Positions 2,176-64,000 of a DNA stretch of 64,000 nt are shown piece after piece. A program made the translations under genes and the position numbers. How positions within the stretch are numbered: position 1 is the first letter of the stretch; the number at the start of each line of letters is the position of its first letter. The DNA is from Clostridia bacterium (GTDB taxonomy: Bacteria; Bacillota; Clostridia; Oscillospirales; Acutalibacteraceae). Location of the stretch: NCBI GenBank assembly GCA_017430535.1, contig JAFRMR010000023.1, forward strand, positions 169,029 to 233,028, read 5' to 3'. Below the pieces are notes generated by a model. That model did no database searches and was not told where the DNA came from. It saw only the letters and a program-made list of their open reading frames with translations.

Positions 2176-4812
2176 TTATTTCAGCATTCCGGCAAGTATA
2201 TCCGCAGCACCGGACATAGCTTCGCCTGTTTTATCAACATTTTTTGTGCCCGCCATGGCGCTGTCGGGTCTGCCGCCGCCGGAGCCCCCGGCTATGGCTG
2301 CAACTGCCCTGACTATATTGCCGGCGTGAGCCCCTGCCGCAACAGCAGCTTTACCGCAGGCGCAGGCAAAGTTGGCGGCTGTTTTTTCGGCGTTAATGCC
2401 GCAGATGATAATAACAAGGTCATCTTCATCCTTGGCTTTATCGCACATATTCCTGAGCTCGCCGGGGTTAACTCCCTCAAGGGTTACCGCACTCAGACGG
2501 ATGCCTTTGATATTCTGAACATTATCGGTGAGATCTCCGGCTTTGAAGGCGGAAATTTCGCCGCGGAGCTTTTCTATCTCTTTTTCGTTTGCTTTTATTT
2601 CGCCCATAAGCGCCGACGCTCTCTTATCAATATCCGAAACATTGGTAAGCTTCATAGCGGCGGCTGTGTTTCTTATAAGCTCATTGTTTTCCGCAATATA
2701 ATCCAGCACGCCGAAACCGGTAACGCCCTCTATACGGCGTATGCCTGCGGCAACGGATGACTCATAAACTATTTTGAAAAGACCTATTTTGCCTGTATTT
2801 GATACATGAGTACCGCCGCAGAGTTCGGTTGAGAAATCACCGGCTTTAACTACCCTGACTATATCGCCGTACTTTTCGCCGAACAGAGCCATTGCGCCCT
2901 GCTTCTTTGCTTCTTCAATGGGCATTTCCGTTACGGTAACGGGAAGGGCGGAGAAAATAACCTCATTAACTCTGTTTTCAAGAGCGGTTATTTCATCGGG
3001 GGTAAGTGCGCTGAAGTGGGTAAAGTCAAACCTTACGGCCTTGCCGTTTACAAGCTGACCGGCCTGCTCAACATGAGAGCCCAGCAGCTCTCTGAGAGCA
3101 GCCTGCAGAAGGTGGGCGGAGGTATGGTTGCGGGCGGTGGCTTCCCTTAACTTAACATCAATCCCGGCCCTGCACTTATCGCCTGCGGCAACGCTTTCGC
3201 CTCTGGTGATTCTGCCAATGTGAAGGAATATGCCGTCGGCGGTTTTTGTTACGGTATCAACGGTGAATTCTGCCGAGCCGAAATCAAGAACGCCTTTATC
3301 CCCTGCCTGGCCGCCGCTTTCGCCGTAAAATACGGTTCTGTCAAGCACAAGGGCGGCTTCGGTATCGGGGCCTATAAAATCAACTCTTTCACCGCCGGAA
3401 ATCAGGGCTATAACTTCGCTTTCGCAGCTGTAGCTCTCATAGCCCAGGAACTCTGTTGCATTTATATCTTTGAGGGAGGCTCCGCCGCCTTTCCAGGCCT
3501 CTGCTCCCGCATCCTTGCGGGCGGCTCTTGCGGCGGCTCTGCTCTGAGCATAGAGCTTTTCATACTCTTCCATATCAACCTTCATGCCCTTTTCCTCAAG
3601 GAGCTCTCTTGTGAGATCAATGGGGAAGCCGAAGGTATCCTGAAGCTTGAAGGCATCCGCGCCGGAGAGGGTGTTATTCTCAGCGCCGTCAATAAGGGTT
3701 TCAAGCAGATTAAGGCCGGTATCTATGGTTTTATTGAAGTTTTCTTCCTCGGCCTTTATTACCTTAACGATAAGATCGTGCTTTTCAACAAGGTTGGGGT
3801 ATGCGTTTTCATTCTCTTTAATTACGGTTTCCGCAACTTTATAGAGGAACAGGCCGTCAATACCCAGAAGCCTGCCGTGCCTTGCGGCTCTTCTGAGCAG
3901 GCGGCGCAGAACATAGCCCCTGCCTTCGTTTGAGGGCATTACGCCGTCGCCTATCATAAAGGTAGTGCTCCTTATGTGGTCCGTGATAACGCGAAGGGAA
4001 ATATCGTTCTTTTCGTTTTCGTGATATTTTATGCCGGAAATATCGATTATGTGCTTCATGATATTCTGCACGGTATCAACCTCAAAGAGGTTATCAACCC
4101 CCTGCATTATGCAGGCGATTCTTTCAAGGCCCATACCGGTATCGATATTGCAGCTTTTAAGCCGTGTGTAATTGTTATTTCCGTCGTTTTCAAACTGAGT
4201 GAAAACAAGGTTCCAGAATTCGGTGTATCTGTCACAGTCGCAGCCGACTTTACAGTCCGGCTTGCCGCAGCCGTATTTTTCACCTCTGTCAAAGTACAGC
4301 TCGGAGCAGGGGCCGCAGGGGCCTGCGCCGTGCTCCCAGAAGTTATCCTCTTTGCCAAGGCGTGAAATATGATCCTCGGCAACGCCGATTTCTTTGGTCC
4401 AGATATCATAGGCCTCGTCATCATCGGTATAAACCGTAACATGCAGGCGGTCAACAGGCATTTCCATAACCTGAGTGCAGAATTCCCAGGCCCAGTTTAT
4501 GGCTTCCCTCTTGAAATAATCACCGAAGGAGAAGTTGCCCAGCATCTCAAAATAGGTGCCATGGCGGGCGGTGATGCCTACCCTTTCTATATCAGGGGTA
4601 CGGATGCACTTCTGGCAGGTGGTGACCCTGGTGCGGGGAGGGGTGAGCTCACCGGTAAAGTATTTTTTTAGGGGAGCCATACCTGCGTTTATAAGCAGAA
4701 GGCTTTTGTCGTTCTGGGGCACAAGAGAGAAACTGGGCATGGCAAGGTGCCCTTTTGATTCAAAAAATTTAAGATACTTCTCTCTTATTTCGTTTAAGCC
4801 CATCCATTCCAT
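2176..4812 (-). CDS. alaS: Alanyl-tRNA synthetase
   Basis: A full-length class II synthetase of 878 residues, normal for bacterial AlaRS. The N-terminus MEWMGLNEIREKYLKFFESK leads into the catalytic core with the TRVTTCQKCIRTPDIERVG region. The editing domain shows HTSAHLLQAAL and CGGTHV zinc-ligand motifs, and the C-terminal DHHA1 region has GGSGGGRPDSAMAG. It charges tRNA-Ala and removes misacylated Ser/Gly. The start at 4812 has GGAGG seven bases upstream. The frame continues open further upstream, but that stretch is the T-box leader rather than protein. Expression is probably controlled by uncharged tRNA-Ala through that leader. Confidence 0.97.
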   Translation of the reverse strand: MEWMGLNEIREKYLKFFESKGHLAMPSFSLVPQNDKSLLLINAGMAPLKKYFTGELTPPRTRVTTCQKCIRTPDIERVGITARHGTYFEMLGNFSFGDYFKREAINWAWEFCTQVMEMPVDRLHVTVYTDDDEAYDIWTKEIGVAEDHISRLGKEDNFWEHGAGPCGPCSELYFDRGEKYGCGKPDCKVGCDCDRYTEFWNLVFTQFENDGNNNYTRLKSCNIDTGMGLERIACIMQGVDNLFEVDTVQNIMKHIIDISGIKYHENEKNDISLRVITDHIRSTTFMIGDGVMPSNEGRGYVLRRLLRRAARHGRLLGIDGLFLYKVAETVIKENENAYPNLVEKHDLIVKVIKAEEENFNKTIDTGLNLLETLIDGAENNTLSGADAFKLQDTFGFPIDLTRELLEEKGMKVDMEEYEKLYAQSRAAARAARKDAGAEAWKGGGASLKDINATEFLGYESYSCESEVIALISGGERVDFIGPDTEAALVLDRTVFYGESGGQAGDKGVLDFGSAEFTVDTVTKTADGIFLHIGRITRGESVAAGDKCRAGIDVKLREATARNHTSAHLLQAALRELLGSHVEQAGQLVNGKAVRFDFTHFSALTPDEITALENRVNEVIFSALPVTVTEMPIEEAKKQGAMALFGEKYGDIVRVVKAGDFSTELCGGTHVSNTGKIGLFKIVYESSVAAGIRRIEGVTGFGVLDYIAENNELIRNTAAAMKLTNVSDIDKRASALMGEIKANEKEIEKLRGEISAFKAGDLTDNVQNIKGIRLSAVTLEGVNPGELRNMCDKAKDEDDLVIIICGINAEKTAANFACACGKAAVAAGAHAGNIVRAVAAIAGGSGGGRPDSAMAGTKNVDKTGEAMSGAADILAGMLK

Positions 4813-4836
4813 AATAATTCCTCCAAACTGTATAAA

Positions 4837-5060
4837 AATGAAAAAAGGTGCAGTATTGCAATTGCTTGGGACGATCTTACGACCGCGGTACCACCCAAAT
4901 TGCGCAGAAACTGCACCACTTGATATCCTTAACGCAGAACTTACGCCGCCCTTCAACAGAGCGGAGCTCAAAAGCGGCCCTTCCGTTTCGCTTTGCCCGG
5001 CGGCTGTCTCAGCAAAAAGCCGTCTCTCTGTGAGCTGAAGCGGAATTCTTCTTTATCAAA
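4837..5060 (-). promoter_or_regulatory. T-box leader of alaS
   Basis: On the minus strand, 4882-4896 reads GGGTGGTACCGCGGT, the conserved T-box core that pairs with the free acceptor end of an uncharged tRNA. Downstream, a long hairpin (GGTGCAG pairing with CTGCACC) runs into a T-tract at 4837-4846, forming the competing terminator just before the alaS ribosome site. The upstream 150 bases would hold Stem I and the specifier loop. I did not resolve the specifier codon, though an alanine GCN codon is expected. The 5' boundary is approximate. Confidence 0.88.
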
Positions 5061-5072
5061 GCTTTGTTTGTT

Positions 5073-7061
5073 TTATTTTGCCTGCATATATCCTATGGCT
5101 ACCCAGCCGTATTTGTCGTTATCCATCTTGATTCTCAGCCAGGTTTTGCCGGTATCTTCGGCTTCCTTGGTTTCATAGCCCTCAACTTCATCGCCGGTGG
5201 CAAGGTCGCCAATATCTTCATAGGTTCCGCCGGGGCCGGACCTTACATTGATGCCGCTGTCTGCAACACAGATGTAGGTTCTGGCTTCATCGGTATCGGG
5301 AGGAGTATTTTCGCCGTTCTCGCCGTTTTCATCAACAATATCAATCTTGACACCGGTGAAGGTATTGATTGCGTTGCCCACAAGGATAACGCCCCAGGTG
5401 CCGTCTTTATTGGCAATAAATACGCCGTTATCGCCTACCATGATGTTTCTGTACTCAAAGGGAACAATAACATCATTGCTCATATTGATTATGCCCATAA
5501 CGCCGTTTTTCTTTACGGCAACAAGGCCGTTATTGACGGGACGGCAGTAATCGCAGAATGAAGCCTCTCCGCTGGAGAGATCATTAACGGGTTCATATTC
5601 ATAAGGAACAACTTTTTTATCATCTTCCTGCCTGATATATCCCCATTTGCCGTTCTTTTCGGCGGCGGCGTAGCCCTCAAAGAAGCGGTCCCTTTCATCA
5701 TAGGGGGCTTTCTTATCAAGATCCTGAGGAGTAACGCCGTGCTTGCCGTGAGGTGTTTCTGAAATAATGGCGGTGCCGTTGTCAACGCTGACAAAATACT
5801 GCTCGCCTTCTATGGTAACAAGGGTATGGTACTGGCCCTGGCTTTCATAGTCCCTGCCGTAGCCGCAACGCTGGAATTCATCATAATTGGGCTGAAGAAG
5901 TACATTGCCTCTATAATCGATAAGACCGTACTTTTTGGTAACCGAGGAAAGGAATACGCAGCAGTTCTCATCAAGGTACTGGATATCTGCACAGTTTTCA
6001 AATCCGCCGGGAACCCATTTATAATCGCCGGTTTTGATTTCCGCTGCGGTGGTCTGGCCGGCCATTGTGGTATTATCGTTGCCTTTGTTCTTTTTGCCGT
6101 GGGATGCGGCGGCAACAATAATGATAACAAGAAGAAGGGCGGCGGCGATAATCGCGAGCTTTTTGAAATCCAGATTGCCGATTCTGATTTTTCTGATATC
6201 AAAGCCCTTTTTGCGGGAGCTTACGGGGGCGGGAGTATCGGCAAAGGAATCAAAATCTATTCCGCCGGATTCCGCGTTATCGGGATCTGTGGGGATACCC
6301 GGTGAAGGCGGAACTTTGGGGCCTGAGGAGGGAATGCTGGGCTCCGACCTGAAGTAACCGGAGGGAGCGGGAGCTTCGCCTGCTTTGACCTCTTCTGTAT
6401 GTTTGAATGACTTGTAAATTTCAAGAGCGTAGGAGAATATGTCCTTAACCGTTTCGCCGGAAATCTCAACGCCGCTCATCTGATCCTGAAGGATTCTGGT
6501 GAGAACAGGCAGAGCACCGGAAGCCGGTGAGGGATCGCCGCTTTCGCAGGCGGCGAAGATTTCTTCACGGCCTTTGGCAAGCAGAGAATTGACTGTGCTT
6601 TCGGACACGCCCAGCTGCTTTGAGAGGGACTGAACCGGCATACCGCTGAAATAGTGAAGCACTATGGGCAGACGGTACTCGGGCCTGAGGGCATCAACGG
6701 CATCAAGTGCCGCCGCTGCCTTGCGGCTGTTTTCAAAAACATCCTCTGAGAGGAACTCAAAGGAACCCTCGGGAACATTGCCCTCGGCATCGTCAAAAAC
6801 AAAGTTTTCGCCCTCTTTATAGACGGAGGCAACATTCTGCTTCATCCATATTTCAAAAGCCTCGGGCTTTTTGAGCTTTGTGATTGTGCAGAAAGCCCTT
6901 GCATAAGCTTTTTTGGTAATCTCAGCCGCTGCGCTTTCACTGCCGGAAAGCTTCAGGGCAAGAAAATATGACATCTTGAGAGTACCGGAATACAGCCTTG
7001 CCAGCGCATCGGTGTTTCCGTTACAGGCTGCGTTTACACAGCTTACGATTTCTTCGTTCAT
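5073..7061 (-). CDS. Sigma-factor-like membrane protein with WG repeats and SH3 domain
   Basis: A composite protein of about 662 residues. Residues 1-175 resemble an ECF sigma factor: a region-2-like helical stretch, then a region-4-like helix-turn-helix around 125-170 (LRPEYRLPIVLHYFSGM, then KQLGVSESTVNSLLAKGR). A proline-rich linker follows, then one membrane span at about 303-321 (LAIIAAALLLVIIIVAAA). The outer part has WG-type repeats (KWGYIRQ, GVMGIIN, GTWGVIL) at about 345-570 and a bacterial SH3 domain at about 595-660 (GINVRSGPGG). Topology suggests an outside sensor joined to an inside DNA-binding-like module. ATG 7061 is taken as the start; a TTG lies one codon upstream. A consensus promoter sits at 7118-7146. 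The exact function is unknown. Confidence 0.75.
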   Translation of the reverse strand: MNEEIVSCVNAACNGNTDALARLYSGTLKMSYFLALKLSGSESAAAEITKKAYARAFCTITKLKKPEAFEIWMKQNVASVYKEGENFVFDDAEGNVPEGSFEFLSEDVFENSRKAAAALDAVDALRPEYRLPIVLHYFSGMPVQSLSKQLGVSESTVNSLLAKGREEIFAACESGDPSPASGALPVLTRILQDQMSGVEISGETVKDIFSYALEIYKSFKHTEEVKAGEAPAPSGYFRSEPSIPSSGPKVPPSPGIPTDPDNAESGGIDFDSFADTPAPVSSRKKGFDIRKIRIGNLDFKKLAIIAAALLLVIIIVAAASHGKKNKGNDNTTMAGQTTAAEIKTGDYKWVPGGFENCADIQYLDENCCVFLSSVTKKYGLIDYRGNVLLQPNYDEFQRCGYGRDYESQGQYHTLVTIEGEQYFVSVDNGTAIISETPHGKHGVTPQDLDKKAPYDERDRFFEGYAAAEKNGKWGYIRQEDDKKVVPYEYEPVNDLSSGEASFCDYCRPVNNGLVAVKKNGVMGIINMSNDVIVPFEYRNIMVGDNGVFIANKDGTWGVILVGNAINTFTGVKIDIVDENGENGENTPPDTDEARTYICVADSGINVRSGPGGTYEDIGDLATGDEVEGYETKEAEDTGKTWLRIKMDNDKYGWVAIGYMQAK

Positions 7062-57685: not shown

Positions 57686-57776
57686 GGAGAGATACCGAAG
57701 TGGTCATAACGGAACGGTCTTGAAAACCGTCGTACTCTTACGGGTACCGTGGGTTCGAATCCCACTCTCTCCGCCA
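57686..57776 (+). tRNA. tRNA-Ser (anticodon TGA)
   Basis: A class II tRNA with acceptor GGAGAGA / TCTCTCC, discriminator G and encoded CCA. The anticodon loop CTTGAAA holds TGA, and a long variable arm (CGTACTCTTACGGGTACC region) precedes the T-loop GGTTCGAATCC. Confidence 0.95.
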
Positions 57777-57822
57777 GTAAAAAACAATCCTCAATTTCAT
57801 ATATAAGCATTAACGCTGCCAT

Positions 57823-57913
57823 GGAGAAGTACTCAAGTTGGTGACGAGGCGCCCCTGCTAAGGGCGTAGGTCGGGTAACCGGCGCGGGAGTTCGAGTCTC
57901 CCCTTCTCCGCCA
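57823..57913 (+). tRNA. tRNA-Ser (anticodon GCT)
   Basis: A class II tRNA with acceptor GGAGAAG / CTTCTCC, discriminator G and encoded CCA. The anticodon loop CTGCTAA gives GCT, with a long variable arm and T-loop AGTTCGAGTCT. A terminator follows directly. The accessory region begins just downstream. Confidence 0.95.
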
Positions 57914-58060: not shown

Positions 58061-58115
58061 GCGACGCAAACCGGCGAGCAGTGCGACTATGTTTCTGAGG
58101 GGGGAGTCTCCGCTT
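58061..58115. repeat. 55-bp direct repeat, copy 1 (left flank of restriction cassette)
   Basis: Matches 62312-62366 at 54 of 55 positions (difference at 58068, A against G). It contains GCAGTGCGACTATGTTTC and GGGGGGAGTCTCCGCTT. Both copies have the same orientation and enclose the restriction-modification cassette. It begins about 150 bases after tRNA-Ser(GCT). Confidence 0.9.
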
Positions 58116-58177: not shown

Positions 58178-58332
58178 TACTTTGTTATGAACTTTTTGTA
58201 TGCAGGGTTTTACCCGGCTTTTTTGCTTTTGAAAAGTATACTCGGTAAAAAATGGATTTCATTTTTCATCGGGTTCTTTCAATTTTCACCGGGTTTGGTA
58301 ATTTTTCGCCGAGTAATAATTTTGCTTGGGCT

Positions 58333-59808
58333 TCAAGCAAAAATTACTTCTTCGTCCATTATGCGAAGCGCTTCTTGCTCTAAACAATATGCTTCATATC
58401 TCTTTTCGTTTGCTAATAACGCAAGGTCATTGATGTGTTTTTGGACAGCACTATGTTTAAGGATTGGTATTTGAACCTGCTTTATATGTTCTGGTTCAAT
58501 CGCATCAACAACTCCACCATATGTGTACCTTTGAATTAGTCTTTTTCCGTAGTCTGAATTAAGAAATACAAACAGATACCCGCAGATGGTTTCAAAAGAA
58601 AAAATTTGCATCATATTATCACTAATAGCCCAATTGATAAAGTGTTTTGGCGGCAAAACAACTTCTCCCAATGAACCTCTTGCGGGGGTTAGAATAGAGT
58701 TTTCTTTAATTCCCAACGATTCATCAAGTTGTTTTTTGTGCGCTTTTATGGATAAAAACTTTTCGCTTGATGGGTCTAACTGTTTCATTACTTTTCCGCC
58801 GAGAAACTTAACACCATATTCTTCATCAACATAGACCCGCTTAAATCTTCCGGGAAGCACAACATCAGAACTTATCCGCTTATCGCCTATGGTTGTTACT
58901 TCTTCTGCGTGATTTTTGAGATGCTCAACAATAGCGTCAACTATCGGCAAATGATAGGAGGCGTCAGCGCGACCAGCCATACTGCTGAGTTTCACACTAA
59001 AGGTTTCTACAGGTGCGTCTTTTTTGTAATCATTAACATCAAAATCTTCTATTCTCGGAAGTTGCAATTCTTTAACCATTAATTCCGTAGCTTCATCAAT
59101 TAAATCATTTGATTCATCACGAAGCTCATAGGATTTAACGATTAAATCATTAATTCTGTTCTTTATTTCATCAGGCGCATCCGGAATGGGAATTGTAGCA
59201 AGATGCTCGGGTTCCAAATGAGTAATGACAGAACCGTAACCATTCGTTGTAAGTATAATATTACCTGTTTTTGATTTAAGGAATGTGAATACATATCCTA
59301 AATCTTCTTTACGTTTAAAGGTTACTCTAATTACATCATCGGAAAAAACAGTTCCAACAGTTGTTCTTGATGATAGCGAGATAGTTCCTATTGTACCAGA
59401 ACGAGTTAGTAACAAAGTGTCTTTATTTAGGCGTAATTCTTCTAAATCACATTTTGTTAAAGCAGAGATATACTTATCCGGTTTAGGATAAATATCAGTC
59501 ATCTGCGATGGAAGAAAAAACGGTATCCCGTTAATTTTGTTACTATATACTCTTTTAAACCTACCAGGGTAAAAAGCCGTATTAATGAAACCACTTTCAC
59601 CGCCAAGTTTTTTGTGCTTGTATTTTCCGTTTATTACTCTTGACCAAGCCTGTTTTGCTTCAACATCAAAAACACTTGCCTCTAATCGCTTTTCTCGGTT
59701 TATAACATCTGATAATGATACAGAACACCATTTTAAAGGTTTTTCATTGACAATTACCTGTAACGTACTGTCTTGTTGCGTTTTCGTTGCAAGAGATGAA
59801 TTTACCAT
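58333..59808 (-). CDS. Type I-like specificity subunit with two target-recognition domains
   Basis: A 491-residue DNA recognition subunit built as a duplicated unit. Both halves carry PGRFKRVY. Both also end in a similar block: GYGSVITHLEPEHLATIPIP in the first half and TYGGVVDAIEPEHIKQVQIP in the second. Each half ends in a helical spacer, as in HsdS proteins that read a bipartite site. It should direct the methyltransferase-nuclease encoded upstream. ATG 59808 has GGAGG seven bases upstream and overlaps the upstream gene's stop (ATGGTAA). The sequence is AT-richer than the neighbouring chromosome, suggesting transfer. Confidence 0.88.
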   Translation of the reverse strand: MVNSSLATKTQQDSTLQVIVNEKPLKWCSVSLSDVINREKRLEASVFDVEAKQAWSRVINGKYKHKKLGGESGFINTAFYPGRFKRVYSNKINGIPFFLPSQMTDIYPKPDKYISALTKCDLEELRLNKDTLLLTRSGTIGTISLSSRTTVGTVFSDDVIRVTFKRKEDLGYVFTFLKSKTGNIILTTNGYGSVITHLEPEHLATIPIPDAPDEIKNRINDLIVKSYELRDESNDLIDEATELMVKELQLPRIEDFDVNDYKKDAPVETFSVKLSSMAGRADASYHLPIVDAIVEHLKNHAEEVTTIGDKRISSDVVLPGRFKRVYVDEEYGVKFLGGKVMKQLDPSSEKFLSIKAHKKQLDESLGIKENSILTPARGSLGEVVLPPKHFINWAISDNMMQIFSFETICGYLFVFLNSDYGKRLIQRYTYGGVVDAIEPEHIKQVQIPILKHSAVQKHINDLALLANEKRYEAYCLEQEALRIMDEEVIFA

Positions 59809-61823
59809 AACAAGCCCTCCTGCGTTTTCCACTCATTGAAAATCGAGGGAACATCATATGTCTGATCGTCCTCAACCTTCTTCTTTTGCTGTTGTGATAC
59901 TGTTCGGTCGCCTTCGCTGGTTTCGCCTAATACAAGAATGCTGTTTGTATCGGGAACGAGTATTTCATTTCCTTCTGCGTCTCGTTTAAAGAGCGGATTG
60001 CCACGCTTATCATGACCGACTTTTTCAACCATAGCCATAAATATATTATAATCAGCCATTGTGCCGCTTTTTTCCTCTTTATCCTTTTGCTCCTGCGTTT
60101 TCTTTTCAAGGAAAAGAACCGAGGTTTGTGTACCGTTACGAGGCTGGAACGTGTCTACATGAAGGTCAACACTGGCAACAATACGGTGATTTTTGATTAA
60201 CCATTCTCTGATATATCCCAATCCGGGAGAACCAAGAATAGAATCAGGCAAAACAATACCCATTCTGCCACCCGGAACGAGGAATTGTGTGCAACGTTCA
60301 ATAAAGAGTATTTCCGGCGGAACCGATGATTGCAATCGCTTTGTCATTGTCCATGTTCCGGTGGATTTATTGTTTTCCCAAATATGCGCTAATTCAAATT
60401 GTTCCAAAACATTTTTGTCTTTAACAGGGATTTTGCTGCCGAAAGGCGGATTTGTTACAATTACATCAAAGAATTCAAGAGTAGAATAATTACGAATGTC
60501 TGTTTTTGAAACTCCGAGTGCTTCCGCTAATTTTGTTCTGAATTCATCAGACCATTCGTGAGGCGGTAAAAGTGAATTCGTTTGGAGAATATTACCGCTA
60601 CCGTCGTTGTTCATAACCATATTCATTTTGGTCGCTTTTACGAGGTCAGGGTTAATATCAAATCCAAAATAATTATGAGAAGCCATATCTGAAATACGGT
60701 CATTAAATGCTTTTACGGTATCGGTATCCCAATCTTTTCTTTCCTGCCCGAGCTGTTCTGAGAACTCTTTTTCAACCTCGTTCATAACATGAGTCATAGC
60801 GGTAACCAAGAAGCCGCCTGTGCCGCAAGAGCTGTCTAAAACCTTTTCATCAATTTTGGGGTTAACCATGTCAACCACCATTTTCATAACATTTCTGGGC
60901 GTGAAAAATTCACCCCTGTCCCCACGGAGGTTAGCACCGACGATTTCTTCATAAGCTTTGCCTTTAATATCAATATTTGTGTTTAAAAGGCTATATTTTT
61001 GCAACTCGCTAACGATATATGCCAGACTTCGAGGTGAAAGCTTTATTTCGTCGTTTGAATCAAATATTTTACCATGCTTTTTCTTAACACGCTCAAATAT
61101 TTTTGATATTCTTTTCTTTACGGTCAACTGTCCGTCAGGATTAGAACGTTCTTCCGAAGTGGTATAGAACTCCAAAGGATTTGGGATATTCCTTTCATCC
61201 TCTATTTTACAGAATATTACTTTGAGCAGTTCAAAGAAAGCAGGTTGTTTCTGCAGACCGTCATTGACATGAATATGATTGTGGCATGTTTTGAATACGA
61301 ATAAAAGGTTGTCGTCATAAGCGTTCTTTAACGATGTTCTTTTCGGACGGTTAACATCGTCAAGATTACCGTCAGCTGAAGGAATATCGTTATATTCCAT
61401 AAAATCTACCGAGCCCTTATCGTTGGTGTATTTACGGAACACTTCTTTTTGTTTTCCGTTAGTCCACATACCCCATTCGCAATTCGGACAAGCGGACATA
61501 TAAGATTTGAGCTGTTCTACACCGTCTTTGGCATTTCGAGCGTCAACAGCTTCCTTTTTGCACTCAATAATAAGTTTAATATTATTTTGAGTTTGTTCTG
61601 TGCAATCTTTGTCGAAAATAACTATATCAGCTCTTGGCTTACGCGAACCAAGTTGAAGCGTGTATTCGATTTTTACCTGACGGGGAAGATATTTGTGTTC
61701 ATTCACAAGACGCTTTTCAATCGTTTGGCGTACATATTCTTCCGGCGTGTCATTACGGAATTTTCCGTCAATATAGTCGCAGATTTTACCTTCTGGTATT
61801 ACTATTACTTTCGTTTCAGCCAT
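59802..61823 (-). CDS. Nuclease-adenine methyltransferase fusion (BcgI-like RM subunit)
   Basis: A 673-residue protein. The N-terminus (about 25-135) resembles the HsdR N-terminal nuclease, with a PD-(D/E)xK-type triad: Glu53, Asp66 in RADIVIFD, and Glu87-x-Lys89 in IIECKKE. A helical HsdM-like region follows, then the N6-adenine methyltransferase domain with motif I DSSCGTGGF at 330-338 and catalytic NPPF at 458-461. No helicase is present. This matches RM subunits such as BcgI A that work with a separate specificity subunit. An annotation tool would probably call it HsdM. Start with GGAGG nine bases upstream; overlaps the antitoxin-like gene by eight bases. Confidence 0.85.
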   Translation of the reverse strand: MAETKVIVIPEGKICDYIDGKFRNDTPEEYVRQTIEKRLVNEHKYLPRQVKIEYTLQLGSRKPRADIVIFDKDCTEQTQNNIKLIIECKKEAVDARNAKDGVEQLKSYMSACPNCEWGMWTNGKQKEVFRKYTNDKGSVDFMEYNDIPSADGNLDDVNRPKRTSLKNAYDDNLLFVFKTCHNHIHVNDGLQKQPAFFELLKVIFCKIEDERNIPNPLEFYTTSEERSNPDGQLTVKKRISKIFERVKKKHGKIFDSNDEIKLSPRSLAYIVSELQKYSLLNTNIDIKGKAYEEIVGANLRGDRGEFFTPRNVMKMVVDMVNPKIDEKVLDSSCGTGGFLVTAMTHVMNEVEKEFSEQLGQERKDWDTDTVKAFNDRISDMASHNYFGFDINPDLVKATKMNMVMNNDGSGNILQTNSLLPPHEWSDEFRTKLAEALGVSKTDIRNYSTLEFFDVIVTNPPFGSKIPVKDKNVLEQFELAHIWENNKSTGTWTMTKRLQSSVPPEILFIERCTQFLVPGGRMGIVLPDSILGSPGLGYIREWLIKNHRIVASVDLHVDTFQPRNGTQTSVLFLEKKTQEQKDKEEKSGTMADYNIFMAMVEKVGHDKRGNPLFKRDAEGNEILVPDTNSILVLGETSEGDRTVSQQQKKKVEDDQTYDVPSIFNEWKTQEGLLW

Positions 61824-62040
61824 TATTCTTATCCTCCGTTTGTAATAATTCTACTTTATCGTTATCAATCATTCTTTTATATCTCTCATAAGAAATAATT
61901 ACATTTTGCGGCTTACTGTTTCTGTTAACAATAACAACAGAATCATTATCAGCAACTTCTCTGAAAATAATTGAAGCCTTACCGCGTAAAAAGTCAGTTA
62001 TAGGCTTATAATCAAGCGTTTTGCTTTTCTTTTTTGCCAC
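61816..62040 (-). CDS. Phd/YefM-type antitoxin-like DNA-binding protein (putative RM controller)
   Basis: A 74-residue protein. The N-terminal basic stretch (AKKKSKTLDYKPITDFL) precedes SIIFREVADNDSVVIVNRNSKPQNVIISYERYKRM, which matches the fold pattern of Phd/YefM antitoxins (SKNGKPxAVLxSYExY). No toxin gene is adjacent. Instead the coding region overlaps the methyltransferase-nuclease start by eight bases. Palindromes in the promoter at 62087 and 62134 are likely binding sites, so it may serve as the control protein of the operon. GTG start with GGGGG upstream. Confidence 0.72.
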   Translation of the reverse strand: MAKKKSKTLDYKPITDFLRGKASIIFREVADNDSVVIVNRNSKPQNVIISYERYKRMIDNDKVELLQTEDKNNG

Positions 62041-62076: not shown

Positions 62077-62106
62077 ATCTTACCATAAAGTAATTACTTT
62101 TGTCAA
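62077..62106 (-). promoter_or_regulatory. Promoter of the restriction cassette
   Basis: Minus-strand TTGACA at 62101-62106 and TAAGAT at 62077-62082 with an 18-base spacer. The spacer is almost filled by the palindrome at 62087-62100, so a bound repressor would exclude RNA polymerase. Confidence 0.75.
62087..62100. promoter_or_regulatory. Operator palindrome O1 in the promoter spacer
   Basis: AAAGTAATTACTTT is a perfect 14-base palindrome located between the -35 and -10 elements. The same core recurs at 62134-62149. Confidence 0.75.
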
Positions 62107-62133: not shown

Positions 62134-62149
62134 AAAAGTAATTACTTTT
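62134..62149. promoter_or_regulatory. Operator palindrome O2 upstream of the -35
   Basis: AAAAGTAATTACTTTT is a perfect 16-base palindrome sharing the 14-base core of O1; centres are 48 bases apart. A partial site (AGTAATTA at 62125-62132) lies between them. Confidence 0.72.
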
Positions 62150-62240
62150 CGGTATAGCAACACACCGTTCTAAAATGCAACAAGAATCATTATTTTTGTA
62201 ACTCGCTGTTGCTTGTGTAATTACAGTTACATATAAACAG

Positions 62241-62272
62241 AAAAGAGCACTTGAATCAATAAGTGCTCTTTT
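62241..62272. terminator. Terminator hairpin between the cassette and the second repeat
   Basis: AAAAGAGCACTT pairs with AAGTGCTCTTTT (12 bases, 8-base loop) with T-tracts on both strands. It separates the cassette promoter region from the truncated regulator gene. Confidence 0.7.
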
Positions 62273-62311
62273 CAACTAAGTGGTCCTTGCGGCACGATAA
62301 GCACGCCTCGC

Positions 62312-62366
62312 GCGACGCGAACCGGCGAGCAGTGCGACTATGTTTCTGAGGGGGGAGTCTCCGCTT
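62312..62366. repeat. 55-bp direct repeat, copy 2 (right flank of restriction cassette)
   Basis: Direct repeat of 58061-58115 with one mismatch. Sequence identity stops sharply at both ends: the preceding base and the base after CCGCTT differ between copies. Confidence 0.9.
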
Positions 62367-62424: not shown

Positions 62425-63449
62425 TCACTTCATTATATCCAGTATTTCCTTGAATTCCGGTTTTGCCTTGAACTCGTCGGACAGCGGATAATTATCCAGC
62501 ATGTGATGTGTCATCTGCCTGCATAAACCGGTATCAAGAAGTATATCAACATCCTCCTGCTTGTTTAATTTCATGCCTTTAAACAGCAAAGCGGTGCGCT
62601 CCGAAACTTCCGGCAGAGTGTCAAACCGCTTTGCAAGTTCGGCGCATTTCCTGAGGTTTTCAATGGCTTTTGAATTGTTGCCGATTCTGTGATAATACTG
62701 CCCGAGATAGCCGTAATTGTATATTGCAAACTTCCAGCTGGGGCCGTAATTGCCGTCCGAATACACTTTTTCCTGAATACCGGTTATCAGCTCAAAGGCC
62801 TCAATGGCTTCCCTCAGCTCTTCATCTGTGGGCTCTCTGTGATAAAGCAAATAGGGCCGGGCATAATTAGATACGGTATCATCAAGATGATAAAGGAGCG
62901 AATCAATAAACTTCTGACAGCTAAGCCTTGCATTTTCCGGATCTTTTTCAACATGGCACAGCAGCCTTTCTTTTGTATCACGGATGCCGGGCATCTCATC
63001 AACCAGATCATACATATCCCTGGCAGTTACACCGCTGTTTTCAACATCGGTAAGCTCACTGTAATAATAAATAAGGGCTCTTTTTGCCTGAATTCTAATT
63101 CTGTCATTGGTGCAGAAATTCTGTATTCTGTCATAGATTGACAAGATTTCTTTCTTGTTTTTAAGACAGTCGCCTGATCTGTAATTATCGGTGATAAGAG
63201 CATCCATATACCTGAGAAGAATGCGGAAATCCGAGGGATATCTGACAACCGCCTCTTTCATAAACTCAAGGGCGCCCTCGCTGCCCTTATATTTGCCGTT
63301 ATCATATTTATCGATATATGCGAGGATTTCCTTTTCGCTCTTTGCCCTGTCAATACCCAGCAGACTGTCTGCTGACACACCGAAGAAATCGGCAATTGCC
63401 GGCAGAAGCTCGATATCCGGGTAGCTCTCGCCGGTTTCCCCAAGATAAA
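62425..63449 (-). pseudogene. XRE-type regulator with helical repeats, truncated by element insertion
   Basis: The frame reads GETGESYPDIELLPAIADFFGVSADSLLG, the C-terminal end of an XRE helix-turn-helix domain in this group (normally KWExGxSYPDIELLP). A TPR-like helical region of about 330 residues follows to a normal stop. The first ~40 residues of the HTH are missing. Homology stops at the Trp codon, where the sequence becomes the end of the recombinase-bearing element. An ATG/GTG upstream could give a chimeric product, but DNA binding should be lost. Boundaries of the break are approximate. Confidence 0.75.
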
Positions 63450-63454
63450 GATAC

Positions 63455-64000
63455 TTACTCGATTTTTCCGATAAAACGATAGAAGATTTCAATCGTCTGT
63501 ATTCGATTTCCTTCTTCATCGGAATGAGGCTCATGAACAACGATTTTTTCAATCAGAGTGTTCAGCAATTCTGCGGTAAGTTCCTGAGGGCTTGCATACT
63601 GTTCAAGTAGCTGTATCCACTGCTGAACATTGTCCTCATTTTGTTTCTCTTTTTTCATCGCTTCCGTCAGATTGGAAATTGTTTCTGAAATTGCTTGCTG
63701 CTCAGCCTGATATTTTTGAGAAAGCATCGTGAAATTGTATTCCGTAATCCGTGACGCTGCCCAATCTTCATACAGTTTAGCAAACAAACGATTCAGTTCG
63801 GCTTGCCGCCTCTGTGCTTTTTCAAGAGCGGAAGCTTTTTTCTTTGTCTCCGAGGTAAGCAGACGGTTCCCTTTTTTCAAAAGTTCTTTACGCATTGCTT
63901 CTTTGTCTTGCACAAGCCTCGATGACCAATACTGAATACGTGCCAACACATAGTGATAAAGCACATCATAGCGAAGATAATGAGATGTACAGGAATGCGG
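63455..64000 (-). mobile_element. Large serine recombinase, C-terminal part (partial at window edge)
   Basis: A frame open to the right edge gives 181 residues of the C-terminal part. CTSHYLRYDVLYHYVLARIQYW matches the end of the zinc-ribbon/recombinase region. A coiled coil follows (KKKASALEKAQRRQAELNRLFAKLYEDW), then the DUF4368-type end LIEKIVVHEPHSDEEGNRIQTIEIFYRFIGKI. Such recombinases excise and insert conjugative or mobilisable elements of the Tn4451/Tn5397 type. The stop lies about eight bases before the regulator homology resumes, so this is the element's terminal gene. Confidence 0.88.

Follow-up and report, generated by a model that had tools for sequence, protein, structure and literature searches.

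The window analysed here, 64,000 nucleotides (nt) of the Clostridia contig JAFRMR010000023.1, probably encodes a self-contained restriction–modification enzyme of the Type IIB style, a predicted DNA cutter in which a nuclease domain and an adenine methylase share one chain (RM, or M when compared with other methylases) and a separate chain (S) provides specificity. The nearest named families, missed by an earlier sequence-only reading of this DNA, are MAD2 and MAD5 of the defence system MADS, and the nuclease found in the stand-alone enzyme seems to survive in MADS as a dead copy. This seemingly inactivated copy, which goes beyond anything the earlier reading claimed, is the main interest of the case.

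The RM and S chains

Three co-directional minus-strand genes lie close to where the contig (C21) stops: a Phd/YefM-like open reading frame (ORF), RM and S. The two ORFs on which the sequence-only reading was built are present and open; we correct the start of S to ATG 59808 and add to the cassette the Phd/YefM-like gene, a regulator-like ORF at the head of the operon that had been passed over. The two enzyme chains, with lengths in amino acids (aa), comprise:

59802..61823, minus strand: RM subunit, 673 aa, with N-terminal nuclease domain, linker and N6-adenine methyltransferase (ORF, domain and alignment evidence)
61380..61745, minus strand: HSDR_N_2 (PF13588), a PD-(D/E)xK-type nuclease domain, residues 27–148 (Pfam, 95.3 bits against a cut-off of 25, E = 3e-27)
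61665–61667 (E53), 61626–61628 (D66), 61563–61565 (E87) and 61557–61559 (K89), minus strand: putative catalytic residues (alignment)
60078..60974, minus strand: N6_Mtase (PF02384), residues 284–582 (Pfam, E = 4.7e-33)
58333..59808, minus strand: specificity subunit S, 491 aa if read from ATG 59808 (ORF with Pfam and NCBIfam matches)
59065..59568, minus strand: target-recognition domain (TRD)/conserved-region repeat 1 of S (self-alignment; PF01420)
58345..58854, minus strand: TRD/conserved-region repeat 2 of S (self-alignment)

At the level of sequence, one chain combines an N-terminal PD-(D/E)xK-type nuclease domain with a gamma-class adenine methylase. The nuclease, first proposed from E53, D66 and E87-x-K89, is borne out by the profile match over the N-terminus, and the methylase motifs DSSCGTGGF (residues 330–338) and NPPF (458–461) are intact as described. 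E53, D66, E87, K89 and Q104 are invariant across 74 aligned sequences with a lowest identity of 64%, an alignment that holds the window and 73 of 80 fetched loci, the other 7 being near-copies or broken.

S matches Methylase_S (PF01420), and its two halves align with each other (31% identity over 171 aa, E = 3e-24), in agreement with the two-TRD subunit read earlier after M. The longest S ORF begins at GTG 59832, and an alternative ATG at 59808 lies four nt before the M stop in an ATGGTAA overlap. Because 70 of 111 distinct relatives have an ATG at this same M–S junction, ATG 59808 is favoured and is probably the true start. Aligned with its counterpart in relative L004, S is similar only at its start and in two further stretches, and the TRDs look like swappable modules. 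In relative L185 the S matches are split between ORFs of 84 and 389 aa with two ORFs in between, as if an insertion had entered S.

The pairing of M with S is widespread. A scan of genome contigs returned 294 relatives of M, and the best 80 were taken further; these are mostly from Clostridia, with others labelled archaea, Poribacteria, Nitrospirae, Bacteroidales and more, although many are metagenome-assembled genomes (MAGs), so some labels are possibly wrong. When neighbours were clustered across 81 loci including the window (8 ORFs on each side), M was present in 81, S in 76 and the next cluster in at most 12, and in locus order 74 ORFs directly after M were S. In 7 of the 81 loci the second ORF after M encodes a protein of about 260 aa (for example L039, 11738–12520), which in L039 had no Pfam or PADLOC match.

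Automated annotation had been expected to overlook the nuclease, and in the two examples examined it did: one pair is annotated as 'N-6 DNA methylase' and 'restriction endonuclease subunit S', the other twice as 'type I restriction-modification system methyltransferase'. A Mycobacterium prophage (L092) encodes a 45% identical M with the nuclease residues beside an S-like gene, annotated as two Type I methyltransferases, and an 816-aa single-gene relative (L096) shares an Aerococcus plasmid with a predicted optrA. What annotation treats as plain or Type I methylases would thereby become a testable family of compact restriction enzymes that extends, by label, from Clostridia to archaea.

Possible Type IIB kinship and the search for HsdR

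The sequence-only reading classed the pair as Type IIB rather than Type I. The architecture supports this, as does the best PDB match of the M profile, the Type IIB enzyme BsaXI (PDB 8w0p), which scores 174.8 bits (E = 2.2e-50) over the methylase part, ahead of the best Type I M at 77.6 bits (5.5e-21). The sequence kinship with BsaXI is remote, and the placement of BsaXI in the tree that includes it is unsure (long-branch warning). The PDB search aligned profile positions 27–72, 179–582 and a 17-residue piece to BsaXI; within the weak stretch, family positions 27–72 pair with BsaXI 47–96 and D66 falls opposite BsaXI D90. With the BsaXI methylase fragment as query, the window M reaches 118 bits and the HsdM of the same genome 50.7; the BsaXI N-terminal fragment, used in the same way, matched 43 of 151 sequences, none classed as MADS. 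Excerpted text of PMC11997821 reports that BsaXI cleavage requires E73, D90, E105 and K107 and describes these residues as conserved across Type IIB.

A Type I M/S pair that only marks DNA, or that borrows an HsdR from a Type I operon elsewhere, would make the N-terminal domain a structural relic. We consider this unlikely. The window's genome (96.9% complete) does have one PF04313 (HSDR_N) match, its only one, on another contig (C19), in a Type I operon where the 778-aa R lies next to an M (482 aa) and an S (489 aa) of its own. Beside the window's pair, with the upstream view ending about 2.2 kb from M, no HsdR was detected, as first read. Nor did the related loci searched show an hsdR gene just outside the cassette, where its presence had been named as decisive against the Type IIB assignment. 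Among called ORFs of 157 loci with relatives, which include MADS loci and near-copies and have short flanks in some cases, 13 HsdR queries detected none beside M and returned a single weak match, a 568-aa protein at 29 bits, 6 kb from M. In 35 of the first 81 loci the sequence covers 3 kb ahead of M and 4.5 kb behind it, and 12 of the 13 queries were recovered by at least one other query, the 13th (L216) being probably in the wrong frame. HSDR_N was likewise absent among the 25 Pfam families listed, out of 135, for 42 large neighbours.

HSDR_N proteins do occur elsewhere in many relative-bearing genomes, which favours borrowing. PF04313 matches were present somewhere in 42 of 49 and 26 of 34 genomes or records with relatives, over the cut-off in 32 and 20. 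Several of these matches are the M protein itself, so weak HSDR_N matches do not indicate an HsdR; others are HsdR-sized proteins elsewhere in the genome. No match was found in 7 of the 49 genomes, nor in 7 genomes and 1 record of the 34. These 14 genomes and one record, which include Anaerococcus vaginalis ATCC 51170 (L054) and Alkaliphilus transvaalensis ATCC 700919 (L041), carry the pair, so HsdR does not seem needed for its persistence, although MAGs are numerous among them and a single model may miss some HsdR proteins. The residues also speak against a relic: D66, E87 and K89 are kept in all separate-S relatives with an aligned N-terminus and drift in the MADS branch, and selection therefore seems to maintain them.

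The pair could instead encode a one-sided cutter, a nickase or an enzyme for some other DNA context, which we regard as improbable. Sequence alone gives no cut geometry, which leaves room for such an enzyme, as does the lack in the PDB-search alignment of a counterpart to the C-terminal paddle of BsaXI. On the other side stand the separate RM and two-TRD S chains, organised as in BcgI and BsaXI according to excerpts of PMC3874165 and PMC11997821, an organisation that argues for an (RM)2S assembly with a nuclease on each side.

Several observations weigh against a Type IIB-style cutter. The BsaXI nuclease domain matches only weakly (9.6 bits, i-Evalue 2.1 in the PDB search; better in the 151-sequence set), and E53 aligns opposite BsaXI E75, not E73. 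The missing paddle counts here too: excerpts of PMC11997821 state that BsaXI cleavage also needs two paddle residues and that the paddle is reportedly missing from other Type IIB enzymes. Of 53 PADLOC models, the top 25 include three for Type IIG, which matched the methylase part only; the N-terminus was also covered by models named MTase_II (PDLC03318) and MTase_I (PDLC03034, PDLC03030). Finally, most pair-carrying genomes, the window's included, have some PF04313 match, and an HsdR acting in trans is conceivable.

In the Type IIB-style enzyme that we favour, two RM chains and one S chain would bind a bipartite site through the two TRDs of S, and the methylase domains would place an N6-methyl group on an adenine in each half-site. 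At an unmethylated site the N-terminal PD-(D/E)xK domains would pair transiently and cut nearby without a translocating HsdR, while the Phd-like protein would probably repress its own promoter and so set the enzyme dose. The subunit ratio, the site and its methylation, the cleavage and its geometry, and the regulation are what we infer.

Nuclease residues in stand-alone and MADS relatives

M matches MAD2 (NF047738) at 657.6 bits against a curated cut-off of 720, and S matches MAD5 (NF047740) at 317.3 against 400. At an E-value of at most 1e-80, the MAD2 model matched 7 of 398 sampled genomes from the window's phylum, 14 of 395 from the phylum of G503 (Bacteroidia) and 8 of 377 from the phylum of G458 (Proteobacteria), each count including a centre genome whose match was known beforehand. 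The MAD2 cut-off was passed by only 5 genomes, every one of them from the sample of the phylum of G458. We counted as MADS the 12 loci with a mad7 and/or mad8 match beside M:

L091, Piscinibacter; L094, Hymenobacter; L098, Bacteroides; L116, Phocaeicola (M split into two ORFs)
L177–L180, phylum of G458; L153, L157 and L160, viral contigs; L191, phylum of G503

The Piscinibacter locus matches the PADLOC models for mad6 (E = 8e-221), mad7 (E = 8e-266) and mad8 (E = 3e-53).

The nuclease residues divide these loci from the stand-alone relatives. We tabulated positions 53, 66, 87 and 89 in 149 distinct M proteins (from 159) and assigned to the separate-S class the 111 with an S match, and no mad7 or mad8, among the scanned ORFs (7 before and 8 after M). 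In this class 107 proteins read E/D/E/K, one reads R/D/E/K (L165) and three have no aligned N-terminus, so that D66, E87 and K89 occur in 108 of 108 and E53 in 107; at least 2.5 kb beyond S, enough for a mad6 start, is available in 75 of the 107. E87 is present in 0 of 13 MADS-context proteins (12 loci, L180 having two), 11 of which have D at position 53. Long or fused proteins (n = 18) comprise 11 with EDEK, 2 with QDEK, 1 dead and 4 without an aligned N-terminus; proteins for which no S was found (n = 7) comprise 3 with EDEK, 2 with QDEK and 2 dead (L155 and L170, whose contigs stop at or just after M and which fall inside the MADS clade). One exception, L115 from Streptomyces, is dead with no mad7 or mad8 nearby and forms a long branch inside the same clade.

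The methylase motifs are largely retained where the nuclease residues are gone: among 15 MADS-branch rows, CG(S/T)GGF is read in 14 and CGTGTF in 1, and NPPF in 13, with 1 NPWF and 1 cut. Two further alignments contained no MADS-branch row with E87 and K89 together. We also considered a shifted catalytic motif: a D-x-K three residues later occurs in only 4 of 16 MADS-branch rows (L094, L098, L116 and L155) and is absent from L157 and the rest, and we therefore retain nuclease loss as the reading inferred from these sequences.

Trees suggest the direction of change. In a 70-row tree (methylase part only, 70 of the 149 rows) the live or dead state needs one change, and the neighbourhood label MADS needs four because the unlabelled L115, L155 and L170 fall inside the group. 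In a 38-row tree rooted on the genome's HsdM, fusions and a Klebsiella-type M+S group, all with D66, E87 and K89 kept, branch first; MADS lies within a larger, well-supported group (99/98) that has live M+S relatives on other branches, and MADS as a single group is supported at 79/52. A 33-row tree with BsaXI splits MADS in two, with L153 and L191 separated from the remaining MADS rows, though weakly supported (83/66). All three trees drew long-branch warnings, and the outgroup roots of the 38- and 33-row trees lie on very long branches. Since the MADS rows nest among live-nuclease relatives, loss is the likely direction, in one or two events, and for that reason 13 against 108 does not amount to 121 independent observations.

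Could the window simply hold a leftover mad2–mad5 piece of a MADS system whose other genes were lost? Its proteins resemble MAD2 (E = 1.9e-197) and MAD5 (E = 1.6e-94) over nearly their full lengths. However, M and S both fall under the curated cut-offs, the window M has the nuclease residues that the 13 MADS-context proteins lack, S occurs without mad7 or mad8 in 111 of 149 distinct relatives including the window (scanned ORFs; flanks short in some), and the trees group the window with stand-alone S-bearing relatives. No mad6, mad7 or mad8 was seen by the window's M, where contig and window both stop about 2.2 kb upstream of M and so limit the view on that side. The fragment reading was already disfavoured, and we give it almost no weight.

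We lean instead towards an origin of MADS in a stand-alone, self-sufficient RM + S enzyme like the window's, with the nuclease inactivated once (perhaps twice) when this core joined the NERD-kinase MAD6, MAD7 and MAD8. Cutting or other effector action would have moved to other subunits while MAD2–MAD5 kept self/non-self marking, and the stand-alone family would swap regulators of different folds upstream of a fixed M start. This would give the methylation core of MADS a concrete origin. If true, cutting of DNA is expected from the stand-alone relatives and not from MAD2, and some other subunit of MADS must do the cutting or killing. MAD6 may be a DNA cutter: in Piscinibacter a NERD (nuclease-related) domain at residues 12–119 (E = 1.1e-14) precedes the kinase domain, and D...(D/E)xK was found by eye in 10 of 10 MAD6 proteins longer than 1000 aa (14 ORFs matched MAD6).

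Four loci show further arrangements. L153 and L191 have a second MADS-like order, mad6-mad7-M-S-mad8, with shorter MAD6-like ORFs (594 and 430 aa) and an M that has lost the nuclease residues. One MADS operon (L180) holds tandem MAD2-like genes, 63% and 37% identical to Piscinibacter MAD2 and both without nuclease residues. In L051 the protein encoded after S (3542–5146) has a region that resembles the kinase part of MAD6 (E = 2e-19), and the adjacent M, split into two ORFs, keeps its nuclease residues; the locus may represent a stage on the way from the stand-alone pair to MADS.

In the excerpts available, MADS is named in a single sentence of PMC11980395 and only in the reference list of PMC11842806, and those of PMC12926258 and PMC12707154 contained no passage on it. 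Literature searches, whose reach did not extend to the primary MADS paper, found no statement of a dead nuclease copy in MADS.

Regulator, surroundings and known systems

The remaining features of the cassette are:

61816..62040, minus strand: small protein of 74 aa, Phd/YefM antitoxin-like and probably the autoregulator of the operon (PF02604, E = 2.1e-7)
62077..62106, minus strand: promoter-like TTGACA-18-TAAGAT, 10 of 12 positions, TG before the -10 (consensus match only)
62087..62100, no strand: palindrome AAAGTAATTACTTT in the promoter spacer, exact, putative operator (repeat count)
62135..62148, no strand: the same palindrome again, 48 nt farther upstream (repeat count)
58320..58342, minus strand: terminator-like hairpin 3′ of S (hairpin scan)
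62240..62273, minus strand: terminator-like hairpin on the upstream side of the operon (hairpin scan; 9 found in the region, 4.1 expected)

The promoter-like site is the best of 15, against 12.1 expected from shuffles, and the palindrome occurs twice in the window against 0.02 copies expected by chance. The Phd/YefM-like ORF shares 8 nt with the start of M. A toxin–antitoxin pair was considered and rejected, as inspection by eye of listed ORFs of at least 60 aa revealed no toxin-like neighbour and M directly follows the Phd-like ORF. A small same-strand ORF lies just upstream of M in 56 of 104 relatives with enough sequence (48 have none), and 15 of the 56 share the window's 8-nt overlap. Together with the window's, 54 of these ORFs gave 16 matches to HTH_3, 15 to HTH_26, 4 to HTH_17, 2 to winged helix-turn-helix models and 1, the window's, to Phd; ribbon-helix-helix models matched as well, the helix-turn-helix matches overlap, and several other ORFs look spurious. 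L004 encodes a 96% identical M, yet has a different 71-aa protein upstream, and DNA similarity ends 14 nt before the M start. Given this replacement and the varied folds among relatives, the regulator looks like a swappable module. In Collinsella (L120, 5650–5847) a RelB/DinJ-annotated antitoxin gene occupies the regulator position directly before an 885-aa relative.

The cassette lies in a stretch of 38% GC that adjoins sequence of 50% GC. Two tRNA-Ser genes (57686–57913) flank it on one side; on the upstream side are an ORF for a TPR protein and, at 63455–64000, the 3′ part of a gene resembling a recombinase (DUF4368). At 62425–64000 this 3′ part overlaps the frame of the TPR protein, which has a partial helix-turn-helix match at its N-terminus. 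The arrangement, cut by the contig end, looks like the insertion of a recombinase element into the TPR-protein gene. A 55-nt repeat stands on both sides of the cassette (58061–58115 and 62312–62366, 98% identical). We rejected it as a specific insertion footprint because related genomes contain scattered, diverged copies; in genome G010 the repeat is overlapped by 16 of 19 matches.

Restriction–modification operons controlled by C proteins have a small DNA-binding protein at their head. The window's regulator shares that position and is instead of the Phd/YefM type. With Type I systems the cassette shares S organisation and methylase motifs; it differs in that no HsdR was found here and the window M carries a nuclease domain, and the genome's own Type I HsdM stands apart from the window M family on a very long branch. 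BsaXI likewise joins an N-terminal nuclease to a gamma-type methylase in one chain with a separate two-TRD S, but it is remote, at most 31% identical to the other 32 tree rows and 916 aa long against 673. The layout of RM and S is also that of BcgI, the Type IIB archetype, compared by description only from excerpts of PMC3874165 and PMC4027205. Two relatives within separate-chain branches, L083 (M match from 10001) and L117 (5839–9378), are RM + S single chains of 1117 and 1241 aa and resemble single-chain Type IIB enzymes. MAD2 and MAD5 resemble the window's M and S almost end to end, and HSDR_N_2 is still detectable in MAD2 (E = 2.9e-10 in L091, 2.4e-9 in L153). By contrast with the window M, MAD2 lacks the nuclease residues, and its operon adds MAD6, MAD7 and MAD8.

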